Source: Gemmatimonadota bacterium (GTDB lineage Bacteria; Gemmatimonadota; Gemmatimonadetes; Longimicrobiales; Gaopeijiaceae). Taken from it: a DNA stretch of 38,276 bases. Below, piece by piece: positions 26,187 through 33,123 of this stretch. Each line of letters starts with the position of its first letter. Position 1 is the first letter of the stretch. Below the pieces are notes generated by a model. That model saw only the letters and a list, made by a program, of their open reading frames with translations, did not search any database and was not told where the DNA came from. The translations under genes were made by a program, and so were the position numbers. The stretch is from NCBI GenBank assembly GCA_022826005.1, contig JAJDVT010000078.1, positions 1 through 38,276 on the forward strand. The letters are read 5' to 3'.

Positions 26187-27161
26187 TCAGTCGGGGGGCG
26201 AGGGTTGGGGCGGAGCGTCCCAGAGTCGCACGGGGTAGACCTTCGATTCTACCAGCTTTTGCAGCGATTCGGCCACTCCGGCGTGGTCGCCGGGGAAGGT
26301 GACGCCGAGCCAGAGGGCGGGGGTAGGGAGTACCTTGCAGCGGGCGCGCCCGGTGGCGATCAGCTCGTTCATCGCCTCGGAGAGGTAGAACTCGCGGTCC
26401 AGGCCGGGGCCGGTGGCGAGGAATTGGGTGAAGAGGTCGCGGAGGGGGGGCAGGATTCCGGGTGTGAAGCCCCACAGGTTGGTGCAGACGGGGGTGTCGG
26501 CGGGCACGTCGATGGGGCGGCCGGCGACGTCGCGGCCGTGGACGTGGGCGTCCACCCGCCGCAACTCCAAACCCTCGGTCAGCCGCAGAAGGGTGCCGGC
26601 CTCGTCGACTTCGCAGATCCCACGCGAGACGCCGCCGCTATCGGAGAGGGTGGCCGAGAGGGGATAGCCGACGGTGAATGACATGTTCACTTTACGTTCT
26701 GTAATGCTTACTTGACTTCCCGTGGCTTCCTGGGGCCGGGGGCTCCGCATCGCATGCGCCAGCGCGGCATAGGCCTCGCGCCCGTAGAAGTCGTCGGCGT
26801 TGCAGATCGCGAAGGGGCCGTCGATGTGCTCGCCGGCGGTGAGGACCGCGTGGCCGGTGCCCCAGGGGCGGGTGCGGTCGGGTGGCGGGTCGTCCACGAG
26901 GCCGGGATGCGTGATCTGCTGGTAGGCGAAGCGGATGTCAAGGCCGGCCGCGATTGCGGGACGCAGGTGCGCGTCGAAGTCGGGCCGCAGCGCCTTCTGG
27001 ATCACGAGGACGAACCGGGTGAAGCCGGCGAGCACGCCATCGTAGAGGGCGTAGTCGAGCAGGGCCGCGCCGCCCGGGCCGACGGGCGCGAGCTGCTTCA
27101 GGCGGCCGAAGCGGGTGGAGCGGCCAGCCGCGAGGATGACGAGGGTGAGGGGTGGGGGCAC
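26187..27161 (-). CDS. Nucleotidyltransferase family protein (NTP_transferase)
   Basis: This 324-residue protein has the nucleotide-binding start LVILAAGRSTRFGRLKQL (residues 7-24), a variant of the GxGxRx(n)K motif of sugar-nucleotide transferases, and the NADDFYG metal-binding Asp motif near 119-125. It probably adds a nucleoside monophosphate to a sugar phosphate. Between ~145 and 165 the sequence SQVSITERKVNMSF appears to be an insert encoded by the AT-rich element at 26683-26719; relatives I know go straight on to a VGYPL-like strand. The symporter gene follows after 5 bases and galK lies further downstream, so a sugar uptake and activation operon is likely. The ATG 27161 start has no strong ribosome site. 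Confidence 0.88.
   Translation of the reverse strand: MPPPLTLVILAAGRSTRFGRLKQLAPVGPGGAALLDYALYDGVLAGFTRFVLVIQKALRPDFDAHLRPAIAAGLDIRFAYQQITHPGLVDDPPPDRTRPWGTGHAVLTAGEHIDGPFAICNADDFYGREAYAALAHAMRSPRPQEATGSQVSITERKVNMSFTVGYPLSATLSDSGGVSRGICEVDEAGTLLRLTEGLELRRVDAHVHGRDVAGRPIDVPADTPVCTNLWGFTPGILPPLRDLFTQFLATGPGLDREFYLSEAMNELIATGRARCKVLPTPALWLGVTFPGDHAGVAESLQKLVESKVYPVRLWDAPPQPSPPD
26683..26719. repeat. AT-rich palindromic element, copy C, inside the nucleotidyltransferase gene
   Basis: Twenty-six of 37 positions match copy B at 23767. The shared core is CTTTACG, then TGT-ATG, then TTACTT-ACTT. It also contains TTAC-AGAAC-GTAA as a small inverted repeat on the minus strand. It lies in frame within the coding region, where it seems to add about 14 residues. 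Confidence 0.55.
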
Positions 27162-27240: not shown

Positions 27241-27269
27241 TTGGAACCAGCCGTCAGATCATCTATATT
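27241..27269 (+). promoter_or_regulatory. Sigma-70-like promoter of the leader/small RNA
   Basis: TTGGAA at 27241-27246, 17 bases, then TATATT at 27264-27269. The -10 box matches the consensus at 5 of 6 positions and the spacing is ideal. Transcription would start near 27275-27277 and run into the structured region and terminator downstream. Confidence 0.6.
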
Positions 27270-27274
27270 GCCGG

Positions 27275-27415
27275 TGGACGAGTGGCCCGAGGCGCGTGGT
27301 CACCACGTACCCGACAGCTTGCCGGCCACCGCCTCCACAGCGTGTGGGAACGAGGATTGCCTCATCCCTGCCGGAGCGACCGTACCCGGCTGCCGATGGC
27401 GGCCGGGTTTTCGTT
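27275..27415 (+). ncRNA. Structured leader or small RNA with intrinsic terminator
   Basis: About 140 bases between a good promoter and a strong terminator have no convincing ORF but several complementary segments. These are CGTGG-TCA-CCACG (27294-27307), GAGGCG pairing with CGCCTC, GGTGG near 27274 pairing with CCACC near 27325, and GGGA-GAGG-ATTG-CCTC-TCCC (about 27348-27370). GCCGG at 27371-27375 can pair with CCGGC at 27387-27391, which would block the terminator stem. It may be a stand-alone small RNA or an attenuator for the genes starting at 27450. The 5' end resembles a tRNA-Ser D-arm, but no T-arm or acceptor stem completes a tRNA. It matches no RNA family I recognise. Confidence 0.5.
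27386..27412 (+). terminator. Strong intrinsic terminator or attenuator
   Basis: CCCGGCTGCC, loop GAT, GGCGGCCGGG gives a 10-bp stem with one G-T pair, followed at once by TTTTCGTTT. This is the best rho-independent terminator in the window. It lies 38 bases before the first gene of the downstream module. Confidence 0.78.
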
Positions 27416-27449
27416 TCTGAGTCGAACCTCCTCCCACCGAAGACCCCAG

Positions 27450-27896
27450 ATGACCCCGGGGCTGACAGCTAAGGTGCACGAGGTCGAGGACGTATTCCGA
27501 GACAAGAAAGCCAGGACGAATTGCCACTCGGAGTCGGGTGGCTGGGACGGAACCGTAGACTCCCCTCTCCGCAAGATACTCAACAAGCTGGAGGACTTCC
27601 TCGACTGGTTCCGCTCCCTGTATCCACGAAGGAAGGACCGGTTTCGACGCGCACTGAGTCGCTGGGAGGGCAGTGACCTCGGCCTGCCTGAGCCGTCCTT
27701 CGAAGTAAAATGGGAGACCTGGAGTGAAATGAATGACTACTTCCAAGGGGTTTCTCATCACGGAAAGCCCACGAGCACTGAGGAACTGAGGAACGGAATC
27801 GCCCGTTTGGAGACCTTCTTGGCGCGGCAACTCCTCAAGACTTCCGACGACCTGAATGCGATCGATGCCCTCTTGAAGGAGCCCGGGAATGCCTAG
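27450..27896 (+). CDS. Hypothetical protein, first gene of an unrecognised module
   Basis: The 148 residues are charged and mostly helical: VHEVEDVFRDKKARTN, then LRKILNKLEDFLDWFRSLYP, and LRNGIARLETFLARQLLKTS near the end. Lower GC and less biased codons than its neighbours suggest transfer from elsewhere. The product has no signal peptide or membrane segment. ATG 27450 is chosen because an upstream in-frame ATG lies inside the terminator; only a weak GAAGA precedes it. It overlaps the next gene by 8 bases. From memory, similar helical ORFs precede a large uncharacterised protein in other genomes, but I cannot verify this and assign no function. Confidence 0.6.
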   Translation: MTPGLTAKVHEVEDVFRDKKARTNCHSESGGWDGTVDSPLRKILNKLEDFLDWFRSLYPRRKDRFRRALSRWEGSDLGLPEPSFEVKWETWSEMNDYFQGVSHHGKPTSTEELRNGIARLETFLARQLLKTSDDLNAIDALLKEPGNA

Positions 27897-28332
27897 TCCG
27901 GAAGCGGTCGAGCAAGCCTTGACGCTCATTGAGAGGCACCCAGTCAACCGGGGGTACTTCTTCTCCAAACTGGAATCACCCGATTGGATCGCACCCTTGG
28001 CCGAAGCGGGCTTCTTCAAGGATCCGCCACCGCGACGAGTCAACGGTGACTTCGTCAGCTACCCTGGCTGGCCCGAATCCAGGTACTTGGCGAGGATGGC
28101 ACCGGTTGCACCGGCCCGGGTGGCAGACGTGATCGGTCGGATTCCCGGCACGGACAACGTCAGCGTTCACGAAGACCTCGCACGGGCGGTGATACATCTC
28201 GACGCCGGGTCGATGGCCCGATGGGCCACAGGGGAGGCTCGCTGGATATCGCGACAGCCGCGAATCGAGCATCCGCTGGATGAGGCGCTGGGTGCCGTGG
28301 TCGAGCGCCTGGCCGGTGACGAGACGACCTGA
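27889..28332 (+). CDS. N-terminal fragment of a large uncharacterised protein
   Basis: The 147 residues start at ATG 27889, overlapping the previous stop (ATGCCTAG). The sequence HPVNRGYFFSKLESPDWIAP, then LAEAGFFKDPPPR, YPGWPESRYLARMAPVAP and TDNVSVHEDLARAVI has the look of the N-terminus of a very large (about 1,000 residue) uncharacterised protein family known to me only from memory. The frame stops after GDETT, and recognisable C-terminal sequence of the same family follows in another frame 20 bases on. I infer that the middle, some 500 residues, was deleted. Function unknown. The two-gene arrangement with a regulatory RNA upstream could be a defence-type or stress module, which is speculation. 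Confidence 0.62.
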   Translation: MPSPEAVEQALTLIERHPVNRGYFFSKLESPDWIAPLAEAGFFKDPPPRRVNGDFVSYPGWPESRYLARMAPVAPARVADVIGRIPGTDNVSVHEDLARAVIHLDAGSMARWATGEARWISRQPRIEHPLDEALGAVVERLAGDETT

Positions 28333-29462
28333 TCGACATTCGCCTGCGGAAGGCCGTGTGGACCACCATCGACGGGTTGGCGGACGACACGGACCCCACG
28401 CCCAAGACCGATTCACAGCCTGCGAGTGACCTGTCGAACCGTTGCATCAACACGGTCCGCGGCAACGCTCTGCACGCCGTTGTCGGCTATTCGCTTTGGG
28501 TCTATCGATCCGAAATGGGGACGGCGAAGGCGAAGCCAGGGGCCTTTGGCATGGACAGGATTCCCGAGGTTCGCGTGAGGCTCGAGCGGCATCTCGATCC
28601 CGCTATCGACCCGTCGCCGACTGTCCGATCGGCATACGGACAGTGGTTTCCGCACCTGCTGTTGCTTGACGAGGCGTGGGCACGGCAGCATGTGAAGAGC
28701 ATCTTTCCCGAAGATCAGCGGGAGCTGCGAGATGCCGCATGGGAGGCGTATCTGCGCCGTGGCCCCGTGTACAACCTGCCCTTCGAGCTTCTCCGCCAGC
28801 AGTATCACGAGGCCGTGGATCGACTTGACGAGATGGAAGAGCGCGACTTGCCGAGGAGAGAGAGAGTTGGAGGGGCTCTCGGGGAGCACCTCGTCATCCT
28901 GGCGGGTCGTGGCCTGGTTTCCTGGTCGGACGATGATGCACTGCTCCGGCGGTTCTTTGAGCACGCCGCACCCCGGGACGCCGACCGAGCCATATGGCTG
29001 GTCGGGAGAGATCTCGCCGATGGCGACACGGATCTTTCCGACGATGCGGTGGAGCGGTTCAGGCGGCTGGCGGAGGACCTGCTGGGAATGCTCGAGGAAA
29101 ACGGGCGCGAGCGAATGGGGCACTTCACATCTCTCGGATGGTGGATAGCGTCCGGTCGCTTCGATCCGGAGTGGACGTTGGATCGCCTGGCAAGACTGGT
29201 TGAACTTGCCGGAGGGGCCAAACCGAGCTTCGGGGTGACGGACTACCTCGTTGACGTGTCGCGGAATCACCCGTCCGAGGCTCTCGAGGTGTTCAGAATG
29301 CTTGTGAACGCAGATGGACTTCGCCGCGGACCGAAACACGTGCGATCGGCGCGGGTAATCCTGCGGGCGGCGCTCGCGGATCCCTCTTCGCATGACGCCG
29401 CGCGCTCATTCATCGAGCAGCTCCTCGCGGCCGGGCACCTGGATTACAGGGACCTGCTGTAA
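28326..29462 (+). pseudogene. C-terminal part of the same large protein, frame broken upstream
   Basis: The open frame of about 378 codons begins without a normal start; GTG 28356 is the first possible one and would give 368 residues. The sequence includes NTVRGNALHAVVGYSLWVYR, RVRLERHLDPAIDPSPTVRS, YGQWFPHLLLLDEAWARQHV, and FTSLGWWIASGRFDPEWTLD, ending RDLL. These are C-terminal landmarks of the large uncharacterised family suggested for 27889-28332, so the two ORFs appear to be the ends of one gene joined after loss of the middle. It may still be translated, because no stop interrupts it. No catalytic motif was recognised. Confidence 0.6.
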
Positions 29463-29578
29463 GGCGTGCCTGACACAGGGCCGGGCCTGACCGCCGCCAG
29501 GATGACGCACTCCGATAACCGGAATCGCGGGCGTGCCGGTTTCCATCGCGAGGGTCGGCACACGCACGAAAACCCGCG

Positions 29579-31555
29579 CTACGATTCCCCGGGATCATCG
29601 CCTTCTCCCAGCCCGGCCAAGGCCAGCAGCCGCAGCGCATTCGTCGAAGTGGTGATGCCGTCGCGGAGCCGGTAGTCGAAGGTGAGCTCCTTGTCCGTCA
29701 CCCCGAAAGACTCGGTGAAGTGGACGGCGGTTGCCCGCGTGGCGAGGTCTTCGGCGTCGGCGAGGGTGAGGTCGTGCGTGGTCACGGCGCCGATTGCGCC
29801 GGTGGCGAGGAGCTTGCGCAGCACCGTGCGGGCCGCGATGCGGCGTTCGGCGCTGTTTGTGCCCTGCAGGATCTCGTCGAGGAGGTAGAGGGTGCGGGGC
29901 CGGGGGCCGGCGGCGGCGTCCACCACGCGCTTCAGGCGCTGGAGTCCGGCCAGGAAGTAGGAGACGCCGTCGGCGAGCGAGTCCTCGATGTGTATGCTGG
30001 TCATGACGCGGAGCGGGGGCATTCGCAGCTCCTCGGCACAGACGGGGCCGCCGGCCTGGGCCAGGACCGCGTTCAATCCGGTTGCGCGGAGCAGGGTCGA
30101 CTTGCCTGACATGTTGGAGCCGGTGACGAGCAGAAAGGAGCCGGCGGGGCCGATTTCGACATCGTTGTGGATGCACTCCTGCGGTGGCAGGAGGGGATGG
30201 CCAAGGGCGCGGGCACGGAGCGTGCGGGCGTCCGGGTCGAGCGCTGGCATCGTCCAGCCGGGATTGTCGGCAGCCAGCGCGGCGAGGGCGGCCAGCGCCT
30301 CCGCCTCCCCCACCGCCCCCAGCCACCCCCTCACACGGCGGCCCGACCGCGCCTTCCACTGCTCCAGCCCGGCCAGCACACGCACGTCCCAGAAGAACAT
30401 CAACGCGAGCGGGATGTGGACGACCGGCGACCTTCTGGCCTCGGCCATGTCGAGCAGGCGGCGCAAAGCGGCGATCTCCTCGGGTGCGGCGCGTCGCTCG
30501 GTGGCCGGACGTGGCCCGGTGCCGCCCGCGGGCCCGGCGTCGGCCGGCGGACCAGCGCCGATACGCTCGCGGAGGGCCGCCAGGTAGCGCGAATCGAGCG
30601 GAGCGTCGCGAAGATGGCCGAGAATGGGGGAGTAGCGCCGCACCCCGGACTCGCCGTCATCCGCCTCGTCGAAGACCGCGTGGATCGCGCGCCACCGGGG
30701 CACGAGCACCAGCGCCGAGATCAGAAGCGGCCACACCAGCACCGGGATGGGTACCAGGCCCAGGGAATAGAGAGTGATCGCGGCCGCGTTGATCGGCGGG
30801 AGCACCAGGCTGGCGGCGCGGAGCCAGCGGTGCCCCGGCAGCCACGCGTCGCCTTCGGCCCAGCGGAGGAAGGAGTCTTCGGACGTCTCTGGCGTGACGG
30901 GCGCGGGCCGGGTCCCGGTGGGAGGGGGCCCGTGGCGCGTAGCGGGAATGGCCGCCAGCCGCGTCTCCGCCGCGAGGCGGTCCCGGAAGTCGAGCGCCCC
31001 GGCCATCTCGCTGACCGCATCCTGGCGCAGGGCGATCGTGTCCGGGTCCGCGCTCCCGAGCAGCCACTCCTGCAGCGTTCGCCAACCAGGGGGCGTCCCG
31101 CACACGCCGGTGAGGTGCAGTAGGGAGGCGTGGCCGTAGAGGTCGAGGTCGCTGGCGTAGTCGTGTTCACGCGGCGCCGCAAGGCCGGGCACCGTTGGCG
31201 CGTTCGGCCACGGCCGCATTTCCGGCCACGACCGCCCGACGCGGGCGATACCCTCGCGGTTGAATGCGGCCATGAACTCCGCGCGCTGCATGCGCAGCCG
31301 GGCCGCCTGCTGCCGCGCCACGAACACCACGAAGAGCGCCGCCGACGCGGCCAGGAGCAGCCATGCCGGCATGCCGCGTCCCGCGGCGAAAAGCCACCAT
31401 GCGCCCAGGGTGGAAGCCGTGAAGAGGGCCAGTCGCAGGCGGCCGTAGAGCCGAACGGTACGCTGCTGTGCGCCGGCTTCCCGATCGAAGCGTTCAGCCC
31501 GTTCCCCATAGACGGTTGCGGGTGGCGCGTCCGTGCGGCTCCGTTCACGTTGCAT
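29579..31555 (-). CDS. Membrane-anchored MutS-like ATPase
   Basis: The 658 residues end in a MutS ABC-ATPase domain: Walker A GSNMSGKST (479-487), Walker B LYLLDEILQGTNS (~554-566) and a TTHD switch motif. Two hydrophobic segments near residues 35-75 and two near 255-290 place the rest of the protein in or at the membrane. The mismatch-recognition domains of true MutS are absent. Such 'MutS-related' membrane proteins are common, but their role is unknown and they should not be equated with mismatch repair. ATG 31555 is preferred; only 2 bases separate it from the start of the divergent serine hydrolase gene, so promoters must lie within the neighbouring coding sequences. It is convergent with the module at 27450-29462. 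Confidence 0.88.
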   Translation of the reverse strand: MQRERSRTDAPPATVYGERAERFDREAGAQQRTVRLYGRLRLALFTASTLGAWWLFAAGRGMPAWLLLAASAALFVVFVARQQAARLRMQRAEFMAAFNREGIARVGRSWPEMRPWPNAPTVPGLAAPREHDYASDLDLYGHASLLHLTGVCGTPPGWRTLQEWLLGSADPDTIALRQDAVSEMAGALDFRDRLAAETRLAAIPATRHGPPPTGTRPAPVTPETSEDSFLRWAEGDAWLPGHRWLRAASLVLPPINAAAITLYSLGLVPIPVLVWPLLISALVLVPRWRAIHAVFDEADDGESGVRRYSPILGHLRDAPLDSRYLAALRERIGAGPPADAGPAGGTGPRPATERRAAPEEIAALRRLLDMAEARRSPVVHIPLALMFFWDVRVLAGLEQWKARSGRRVRGWLGAVGEAEALAALAALAADNPGWTMPALDPDARTLRARALGHPLLPPQECIHNDVEIGPAGSFLLVTGSNMSGKSTLLRATGLNAVLAQAGGPVCAEELRMPPLRVMTSIHIEDSLADGVSYFLAGLQRLKRVVDAAAGPRPRTLYLLDEILQGTNSAERRIAARTVLRKLLATGAIGAVTTHDLTLADAEDLATRATAVHFTESFGVTDKELTFDYRLRDGITTSTNALRLLALAGLGEGDDPGES

Positions 31556-31557
31556 GG

Positions 31558-33123
31558 ATGAAACTAAGCACTTCACCGATGACGGCAGGGCTGGCGGCGG
31601 TCCTCGCAACCATCACCGCCTGCGGTCCGCCGATCCCCGAGGCGGAAGCGCGCGCCCGCGTCAACGCCATCTTCGCCGACTACGCCAGCCCATCCGGCCC
31701 CGGCTGCTCCCTCGGCGTGATCCGGGACGGCGAACTCGTCCTGGCCACCGGCTACGGCAGCGCGGACCTCGACCACGGCATCCCGAACGGCCCGGCGACC
31801 GTCTTCCGCATCGCATCGGTCTCCAAACAGGTCACGGCCGGCGCGATCGCGCTGCTGGCGGTGCGCGGCGAGCTGGACCTCGACGCCCCGGTTCAGCGAT
31901 ACATCCCCGAATTCCCCGACTACCCCGACCCGCCCGCCGTGCGGCACCTGGTCCACCACACCTCCGGCGTGCGGGAGTACCTGACAATCGTGTCGCTGGC
32001 CGGGTACCGCGACGACGATTCCTACGGCAACCCCGAGGCCCTCGCCGCGATCACCCGCCAGCATGAACTCGTCTTCCCGCCCGGCGACCGGCACCTGTAC
32101 AGCAACTCCGGCTACATCCTCCTCGGCGAAATCGTGGCCCGCATCTCCGGCCAGAGCCTGCGCGACTTTGCCGAGGCGAACTTCTTCGGCCCGCTGGGAA
32201 TGACCCAAACCCACTTCCACGACGACCACAACGAGGTCGTGCCGAACCGCGCGACCGGCTATGCCCCGATGCGGCCGGGCCGGGCCGATTCCGACCGCTC
32301 GCCAACCGATGACACCGGGGCAGGCGACTCGGGCGGCGCCTTCGAGATCAGCGTGACCACCCTCGACGTGGTCGGCGACGGCGGCGTCTTCACATCGGTC
32401 GAGGACTGGGGCGCGTGGGACCGCAATCTCTCCGAAGGGACGGTCGGCGGTCCCGAGTGGGTGGCGCTCATGCACCAGCGCGGCGTCCTGAACTCGGGCG
32501 ACACGATTCCCTACGCGTTCGGCCTCTCCCACGGCGAGCACGGCGGCCTCGCGACGGTCGGACACACCGGCTCCTGGGTCGGCTACCGGACGGCGATGTC
32601 CCGGTATCCCGAGACCGGCCATTCCTTCGTCGCGTTCTGCAACCGCTCCCGGATCAGTCCCGGGCGTCTCATCGAGAGGGTCGCGGAGGTCTACCTGGAG
32701 GAACGGATGGCGTCTGCGGAGGAGGAGGAGGCGCCGGAGGGGGCAGAGGCCGCCGCGGAGGAGGAGGCGCCGGAAGCGTCAGCGGAAGAGTCAGGGCCGT
32801 CCGCTGCGGCGCCGGAGCCCTCGGAAGAGCCGGTACGGCCTGAACCCGAAAGCGCCATCCCCGCCGGCGCCCGGTACGCGGGGTCCTTCTACAGCCCGGA
32901 GCTGGCGGCCACCTACCGCATAGTGGAAGACGGCTCCTCCGGGCTTGCCCTGCACGTGGGCCGCAGCGAGCCGGTGAGTCTTCTCGCGGCTGCGGACGGC
33001 GTCCTGACCACCGAGTGGGGGATGACCCTGCGTTTCTCGGACCTCGTCGAGGGTCGCTACCGGGCGATGCTGGTTGATGCAGGGCGGGTGAGGAATCTGC
33101 GGTTCACCCGTGAACAGGGATAG
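31558..33123 (+). CDS. Beta-lactamase family serine hydrolase, lipoprotein
   Basis: This 521-residue protein has a lipoprotein signal ending TITAC (Cys22). The penicillin-binding fold is marked by S87-V-S-K90 (SxxK nucleophile), Y181-S-N183 (YxN) and GHTGSW (HTG motif, third active-site element). It resembles class C beta-lactamases and DD-peptidases. Such proteins are often esterases or peptidases of unknown substrate rather than antibiotic-resistance enzymes. An acidic Glu/Ala/Pro linker near 385-435 separates a C-terminal domain of about 90 residues with a beta pattern (YAGSFYSPELAATYRI). ATG 31558 faces the MutS-like start across 2 bases. No ribosome site is seen, so leaderless translation is possible. 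Confidence 0.9.
   Translation: MKLSTSPMTAGLAAVLATITACGPPIPEAEARARVNAIFADYASPSGPGCSLGVIRDGELVLATGYGSADLDHGIPNGPATVFRIASVSKQVTAGAIALLAVRGELDLDAPVQRYIPEFPDYPDPPAVRHLVHHTSGVREYLTIVSLAGYRDDDSYGNPEALAAITRQHELVFPPGDRHLYSNSGYILLGEIVARISGQSLRDFAEANFFGPLGMTQTHFHDDHNEVVPNRATGYAPMRPGRADSDRSPTDDTGAGDSGGAFEISVTTLDVVGDGGVFTSVEDWGAWDRNLSEGTVGGPEWVALMHQRGVLNSGDTIPYAFGLSHGEHGGLATVGHTGSWVGYRTAMSRYPETGHSFVAFCNRSRISPGRLIERVAEVYLEERMASAEEEEAPEGAEAAAEEEAPEASAEESGPSAAAPEPSEEPVRPEPESAIPAGARYAGSFYSPELAATYRIVEDGSSGLALHVGRSEPVSLLAAADGVLTTEWGMTLRFSDLVEGRYRAMLVDAGRVRNLRFTREQG

Follow-up and report, generated by a model that had tools for sequence, protein, structure and literature searches.

The question raised by this locus is what lies in the gap ahead of a two-gene module in a Gemmatimonadota genome, and how it is related to the genes that follow. 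The window analysed here is a 38,276-nt stretch, contig JAJDVT010000078.1 of assembly GCA_022826005.1, and the preliminary description placed in this gap a promoter, a structured RNA of about 140 bases and a terminator, followed by a foreign-looking gene module. The features recognised in the region are listed in Table 1. The gap contains a real, so far unclassified leader RNA of a defence-type module that has decayed in this genome.

Table 1. The leader, the module and the flanking genes in window coordinates.
Feature	Position	Strand	Remarks
Left flank: NTP_transferase-like gene, divergent	26187..27161	-	
Promoter-like site TTGGAA-17-TATATT	27241..27269	+	Pattern match; -10-like CTATNTT kept in three relatives
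Predicted leader RNA, about 138-140 nt	27277..27414	+	Start predicted from the position of the -10 element
Hairpin P2 (27282-27287 with 27298-27303)	27282..27303	+	GUGGCC/GGCCAC in relatives; compensatory changes absent; G007 has a single mismatch
Invariant block CACGUACCCGAC, predicted unpaired	27304..27315	+	The same in all four complete copies; L064 has CCCGAC too
Closing stem P3 around the variable part (27317-27320 paired to 27374-27377)	27317..27377	+	Relatives have GCUUC/GAAGC, with every cell (100%) paired
Intrinsic terminator, 11-bp stem and T-rich tail	27384..27414 (stem-loop 27384-27408)	+	Pattern scan; stem kept in all five copies
Gene 1 remnant, 148 aa	27450..27896	+	About 80 N-terminal residues of relatives missing
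N-terminal piece of gene 2 (residues 1-143 of a ~955-aa Dsr1-sensor-like protein)	27889..28332	+	
C-terminal piece of gene 2 (residues ~570-954)	28317..29462	+	In another frame; deletion of residues ~144-570
Right flank: MutS domain V ATPase gene	29579..31609	-	Adjoins the left-flank gene in genomes without the module

The foreign appearance of the module is borne out by the organisation of the locus in related genomes. In six congeners that lack both module and leader, the MutS and NTP_transferase genes are only 20-90 nt apart, and leader and module therefore represent a single insertion. The copy in the window (27450-29462) is a pseudogene that has suffered two deletions and a frameshift, and the rest of this assembly yielded no intact one. 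Intact copies are present in three congeneric Gemmatimonadota genomes, G003, G007 and G020, where gene 2 encodes a protein of about 955 aa, while gene 1 encodes about 231-238 aa where it could be fully read (G007 and G020). The pieces in the window are mosaic: gene 1 and the N-terminus of gene 2 are closest to G020 (69% and 79%, respectively), and the C-terminus of gene 2 is closest to G003 (70% versus 53% for G020).

Residues ~213-738 of gene 2 match positions 500-1021 of the profile of Dsr1, defence-associated sirtuin 1 (PADLOC PDLC04166, E 1.5e-54); against the NCBIfam Dsr1 model the protein scores 55.8 bits, with a cut-off of 1400. The similarity is confined to the C-terminal sensor part of Dsr1. 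Unlike Dsr1, gene 2 contains no SIR2 domain, and a separate helical gene 1 is present instead. Relatives of gene 2 are spread over many phyla, and in several loci a gene 1-like sequence is fused to gene 2. The product of gene 1 is predicted to be all-helical (pLDDT 74); a fold search with this model returned only generic, non-specific helical-bundle matches, and weak similarity to pP_pnuc_1 (PF18165) was detected in seven of eight relatives. Family searches with gene 1 revealed no Abi_2, HEPN or ToxN match, no ToxN, TenpN or CptN family appeared among the Pfam, PADLOC and NCBIfam matches of either gene, and a sequence search of solved structures gave nothing meaningful for either. Gene 1 was not found in viral contigs, nor leader and gene 1 together in plasmids. 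In view of its relationship to Dsr1, the module putatively has an anti-phage role, and the arrangement of its relatives suggests an exchangeable effector, SIR2-like or the helical gene 1, combined with a shared sensor. A separate gene, read by eye from the sequence as SIR2-like, precedes gene 2 in place of gene 1 in the loci L066 (3635-4564) and L075 (5058-5975).

The leader occupies the same position before the intact modules of G003, G007 and G020, and a sponge-metagenome contig binned as Chloroflexi (L064) begins inside the leader and runs into an intact module. The leaders of the intact modules share about 85% identity over 143 nt, with no indels, as against 44-56% at the fourfold-degenerate sites of gene 2. 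Two blocks are near-invariant, one from the -10 element through CACGUACCCGACAGCUU and the other comprising the terminator together with GAAGCGACCGC upstream of it, while the middle part is variable. A single reading frame is open throughout the leader in all three intact copies. Its variable sites are distributed 7/10/7 over the three codon positions, and it has accumulated 14 non-synonymous versus three synonymous codon changes. This substitution pattern rules out a leader peptide, and the leader thus looks non-protein-coding.

The RNA is as unfamiliar as first described: the whole window yielded no Rfam family at the gathering score, and a permissive search with the window leader and the loci of the three relatives returned only chance-level matches, the best of them in a relative (E 0.42) lying outside the leader. 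No tRNA or tmRNA was found. Among 395 genomes of the phylum, full-length copies of the leader occur solely before this module and never alone, and the short matches in other Gemmatimonadota are mostly the terminator hairpin by itself. Such a distribution, together with the absence of the leader from empty sites, makes it quite unlikely that the RNA is an independent trans-acting small RNA with a function unrelated to the accompanying genes, although it has its own promoter and terminator and survives in the window despite the broken genes. Several weaker candidates were discarded. Matches of the RNA model in other genera reach at most 21.7 bits, whereas true full-length copies exceed 115, and the inspected ones lie inside long open frames. 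Two viral contigs (L078 and L079) match CACCACGTACCCGACRGC, which is GC-rich sequence there, the rest of the leader being missing; the L078 match lies within a coding frame and scores 14.6 bits with the leader model, a weak likeness.

The promoter-like site, with the 17-bp spacing originally reported, agrees with the consensus at nine of 12 positions; it is the sole such site within 2.5 kb, and 0.1 are expected in shuffles. Of the promoter elements only the -10-like motif is kept in the three relatives, where TTCCAG, 17 nt upstream of it, does not match the -35 consensus, and their promoter falls short of the sigma-70 consensus.

Folding of positions 27270-27420 gives -75 kcal/mol (z = -2.55), while the leaders of relatives exceed shuffles in stability only slightly (z -0.3 to -1.4). 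A plausible fold derived from the compared sequences consists of P1 (GCGG/CCGC), the 5' arm of which may in part precede the transcription start, P2, P3, inner stems and the terminator. This consensus pairs in 93.5% of cells, compared with 34-49% when slid. Its covariation is indistinguishable from that of shuffles, of which 95 out of 500 reach the same score with the few sequences available, because most stem columns are invariant; one pair of an inner stem, occurring as U-A, U-G and C-G, is the sole encouraging sign. Two hairpins, 27282-27287/27298-27303 and 27294-27299/27303-27308, cross, so that only one of them can form at a time; either could also form in the relatives, where the columns hardly vary. 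The proposed RNA of about 140 bases is conserved, non-coding and probably structured, while comparison with relatives did not confirm its fold by covariation.

The lack of compensatory changes in P2, and the inverted repeat GTGGCC-N12-GGCCAC that it forms just past the promoter, would also fit a DNA-level element, such as an operator or a recombination site, conserved for reasons unrelated to RNA. However, the conservation spans about 55 nt and then resumes at the terminator, and no recognisable DNA-binding regulator is encoded in the module, which makes this explanation very unlikely.

The stem of the terminator consists of 11 pairs, nine of them G-C, one pair more than in the preliminary description. 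Any terminator-like site is expected by chance about 1.5 times in a stretch this GC-rich; the hairpin is intact in five of the five copies while its loop varies, and the pattern scan also finds those of G003, G007 and G020. Its position immediately ahead of the gene, the crossing hairpins in the 5' half of the leader and the resemblance of the conserved ACCCGACAGC to the 5' arm of the terminator could point to an attenuator that toggles between terminator and antiterminator through alternative RNA folds. In this vein, GCCGG, which lies at 27370-27374 and had been placed at 27371, was earlier suggested to pair with the 5' arm of the terminator. This pairing is missing in relatives, which have GUGAAGC, GCGAAGC, GGGAAGC or UUGAAGC at the same position, and 11-15% of shuffles show as much likeness to the arm as ACCCGACAGC does. 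In the four complete leaders, folds that leave the 3' arm of the terminator unpaired fall short of the terminator fold by 17-20 kcal/mol at best, and the sequestration of the 5' arm is not significantly above that in shuffled leaders. For these reasons a switch between folds is not supported, and an attenuator of this kind appears rather improbable. The intrinsic-terminator attenuators of bacterial operons likewise have a terminator in the leader, immediately ahead of the first gene, but neither a leader peptide nor a conserved antiterminator competing with the terminator was found here. A factor-dependent change in read-through is possible. A candidate terminator remnant before the second module copy of G007 proved no better than shuffles. 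Just downstream of the MutS-like stop, at 29566-29577 of the window, ACGAAAACCCGC mirrors CGGGTTTTCGT of the leader terminator in inverted orientation, which may be a coincidence.

Taken together, the locus is best read as the terminated 5' leader of an inserted two-gene module related to the Dsr1 sensor, which would keep expression of the module low via read-through and whose 5' domain is likely to bind a factor; we assign this reading a probability of about 0.6. Transcription would start from the promoter-like site, with folding of the 5' end of the transcript, and would mostly halt at the terminator near 27410 to yield an RNA of about 140 nt. The fraction of polymerase that reads through would produce the gene 1-gene 2 mRNA, since a pattern scan of the gap of about 35 nt that separates the terminator from the start codon revealed no promoter-like site in the window or in relatives. 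If the genes are expressed in this way, the leader limits the expression of the module. The conserved 5' domain, comprising P2 and CACGUACCCGACAGCUU, likely binds a trans-acting factor, perhaps a protein of the module, which when bound would alter read-through or be controlled itself. As judged from the sequence, a terminator-based throttle on expression with a putative binding site in the 5' domain is the most likely function.

A comparable arrangement is known in AbiF-RCd22 of Clostridioides difficile, where the RNA starts 168 nt before the ATG with a terminator in between, the short RNA is the main product, the gene is expressed by read-through, and RCd22 also binds AbiF (PMC12373285). Both loci combine a promoter, an RNA of about 130 nt (130-140 nt here), an intrinsic terminator and a defence-type gene whose ATG follows the start of the RNA by about 170 nt, and both lack a second promoter (PMC12373285). 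This common order and spacing, the conservation of the 5' half of the leader far beyond what termination requires, and the place of gene 1, which is taken by the SIR2 gene in L066 and L075 so that gene 1 may be an effector, would suit an RNA that acts like an antitoxin or as a cofactor by binding the protein of gene 1 or gene 2, the terminator setting the ratio of RNA to mRNA. We regard this as unlikely. In contrast to AbiF-RCd22, the locus has no recognised Abi_2/HEPN protein, and the abiF motif RF03085 has no match in the window leader (at the gathering score or up to E 10) or in relatives (up to E 2); the module consists of two genes with a Dsr1-like sensor, and related modules lack the leader. 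Type III toxin-antitoxin systems (ToxIN, TenpIN and CptIN) also carry a non-coding RNA before the gene with a terminator between them. In these, ToxI binds ToxN. Here, by contrast, no ToxN-family protein is recognised, and the three leaders contain no tandem array, only scattered two-copy matches.

In five related intact modules (G007:C132, G010, G068, G192 and G162), the sequence ahead of gene 1 contains no terminator-like site, and a leader-model search of the first three revealed no homologue. The leader is thus a lineage-specific accessory, not an obligatory part, and the RNA appears dispensable for the proteins, which counts against an antitoxin. It is quite improbable that the leader is a new RNA antitoxin or cofactor, of independent origin from the AbiF and type III toxin-antitoxin RNAs, in a two-gene anti-phage system based on the Dsr1 sensor.

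Few defence-type genes are known to follow a terminated RNA, and this leader is an undescribed case among them, from a phylum in which RNAs are sparsely annotated; the module, for its part, points to a two-gene design that couples the sensor half of Dsr1 to a non-sirtuin partner. RNA-controlled immunity would extend beyond HEPN and ToxN proteins if the RNA does bind the proteins of the module.

Upstream of gene 1 in L031 and L023, a promoter-like TTGGAGCC...GGCTATCTTGTCATG is common to the G068 and G010 modules; it has no accompanying terminator and lies about 170 nt or less ahead of gene 1.
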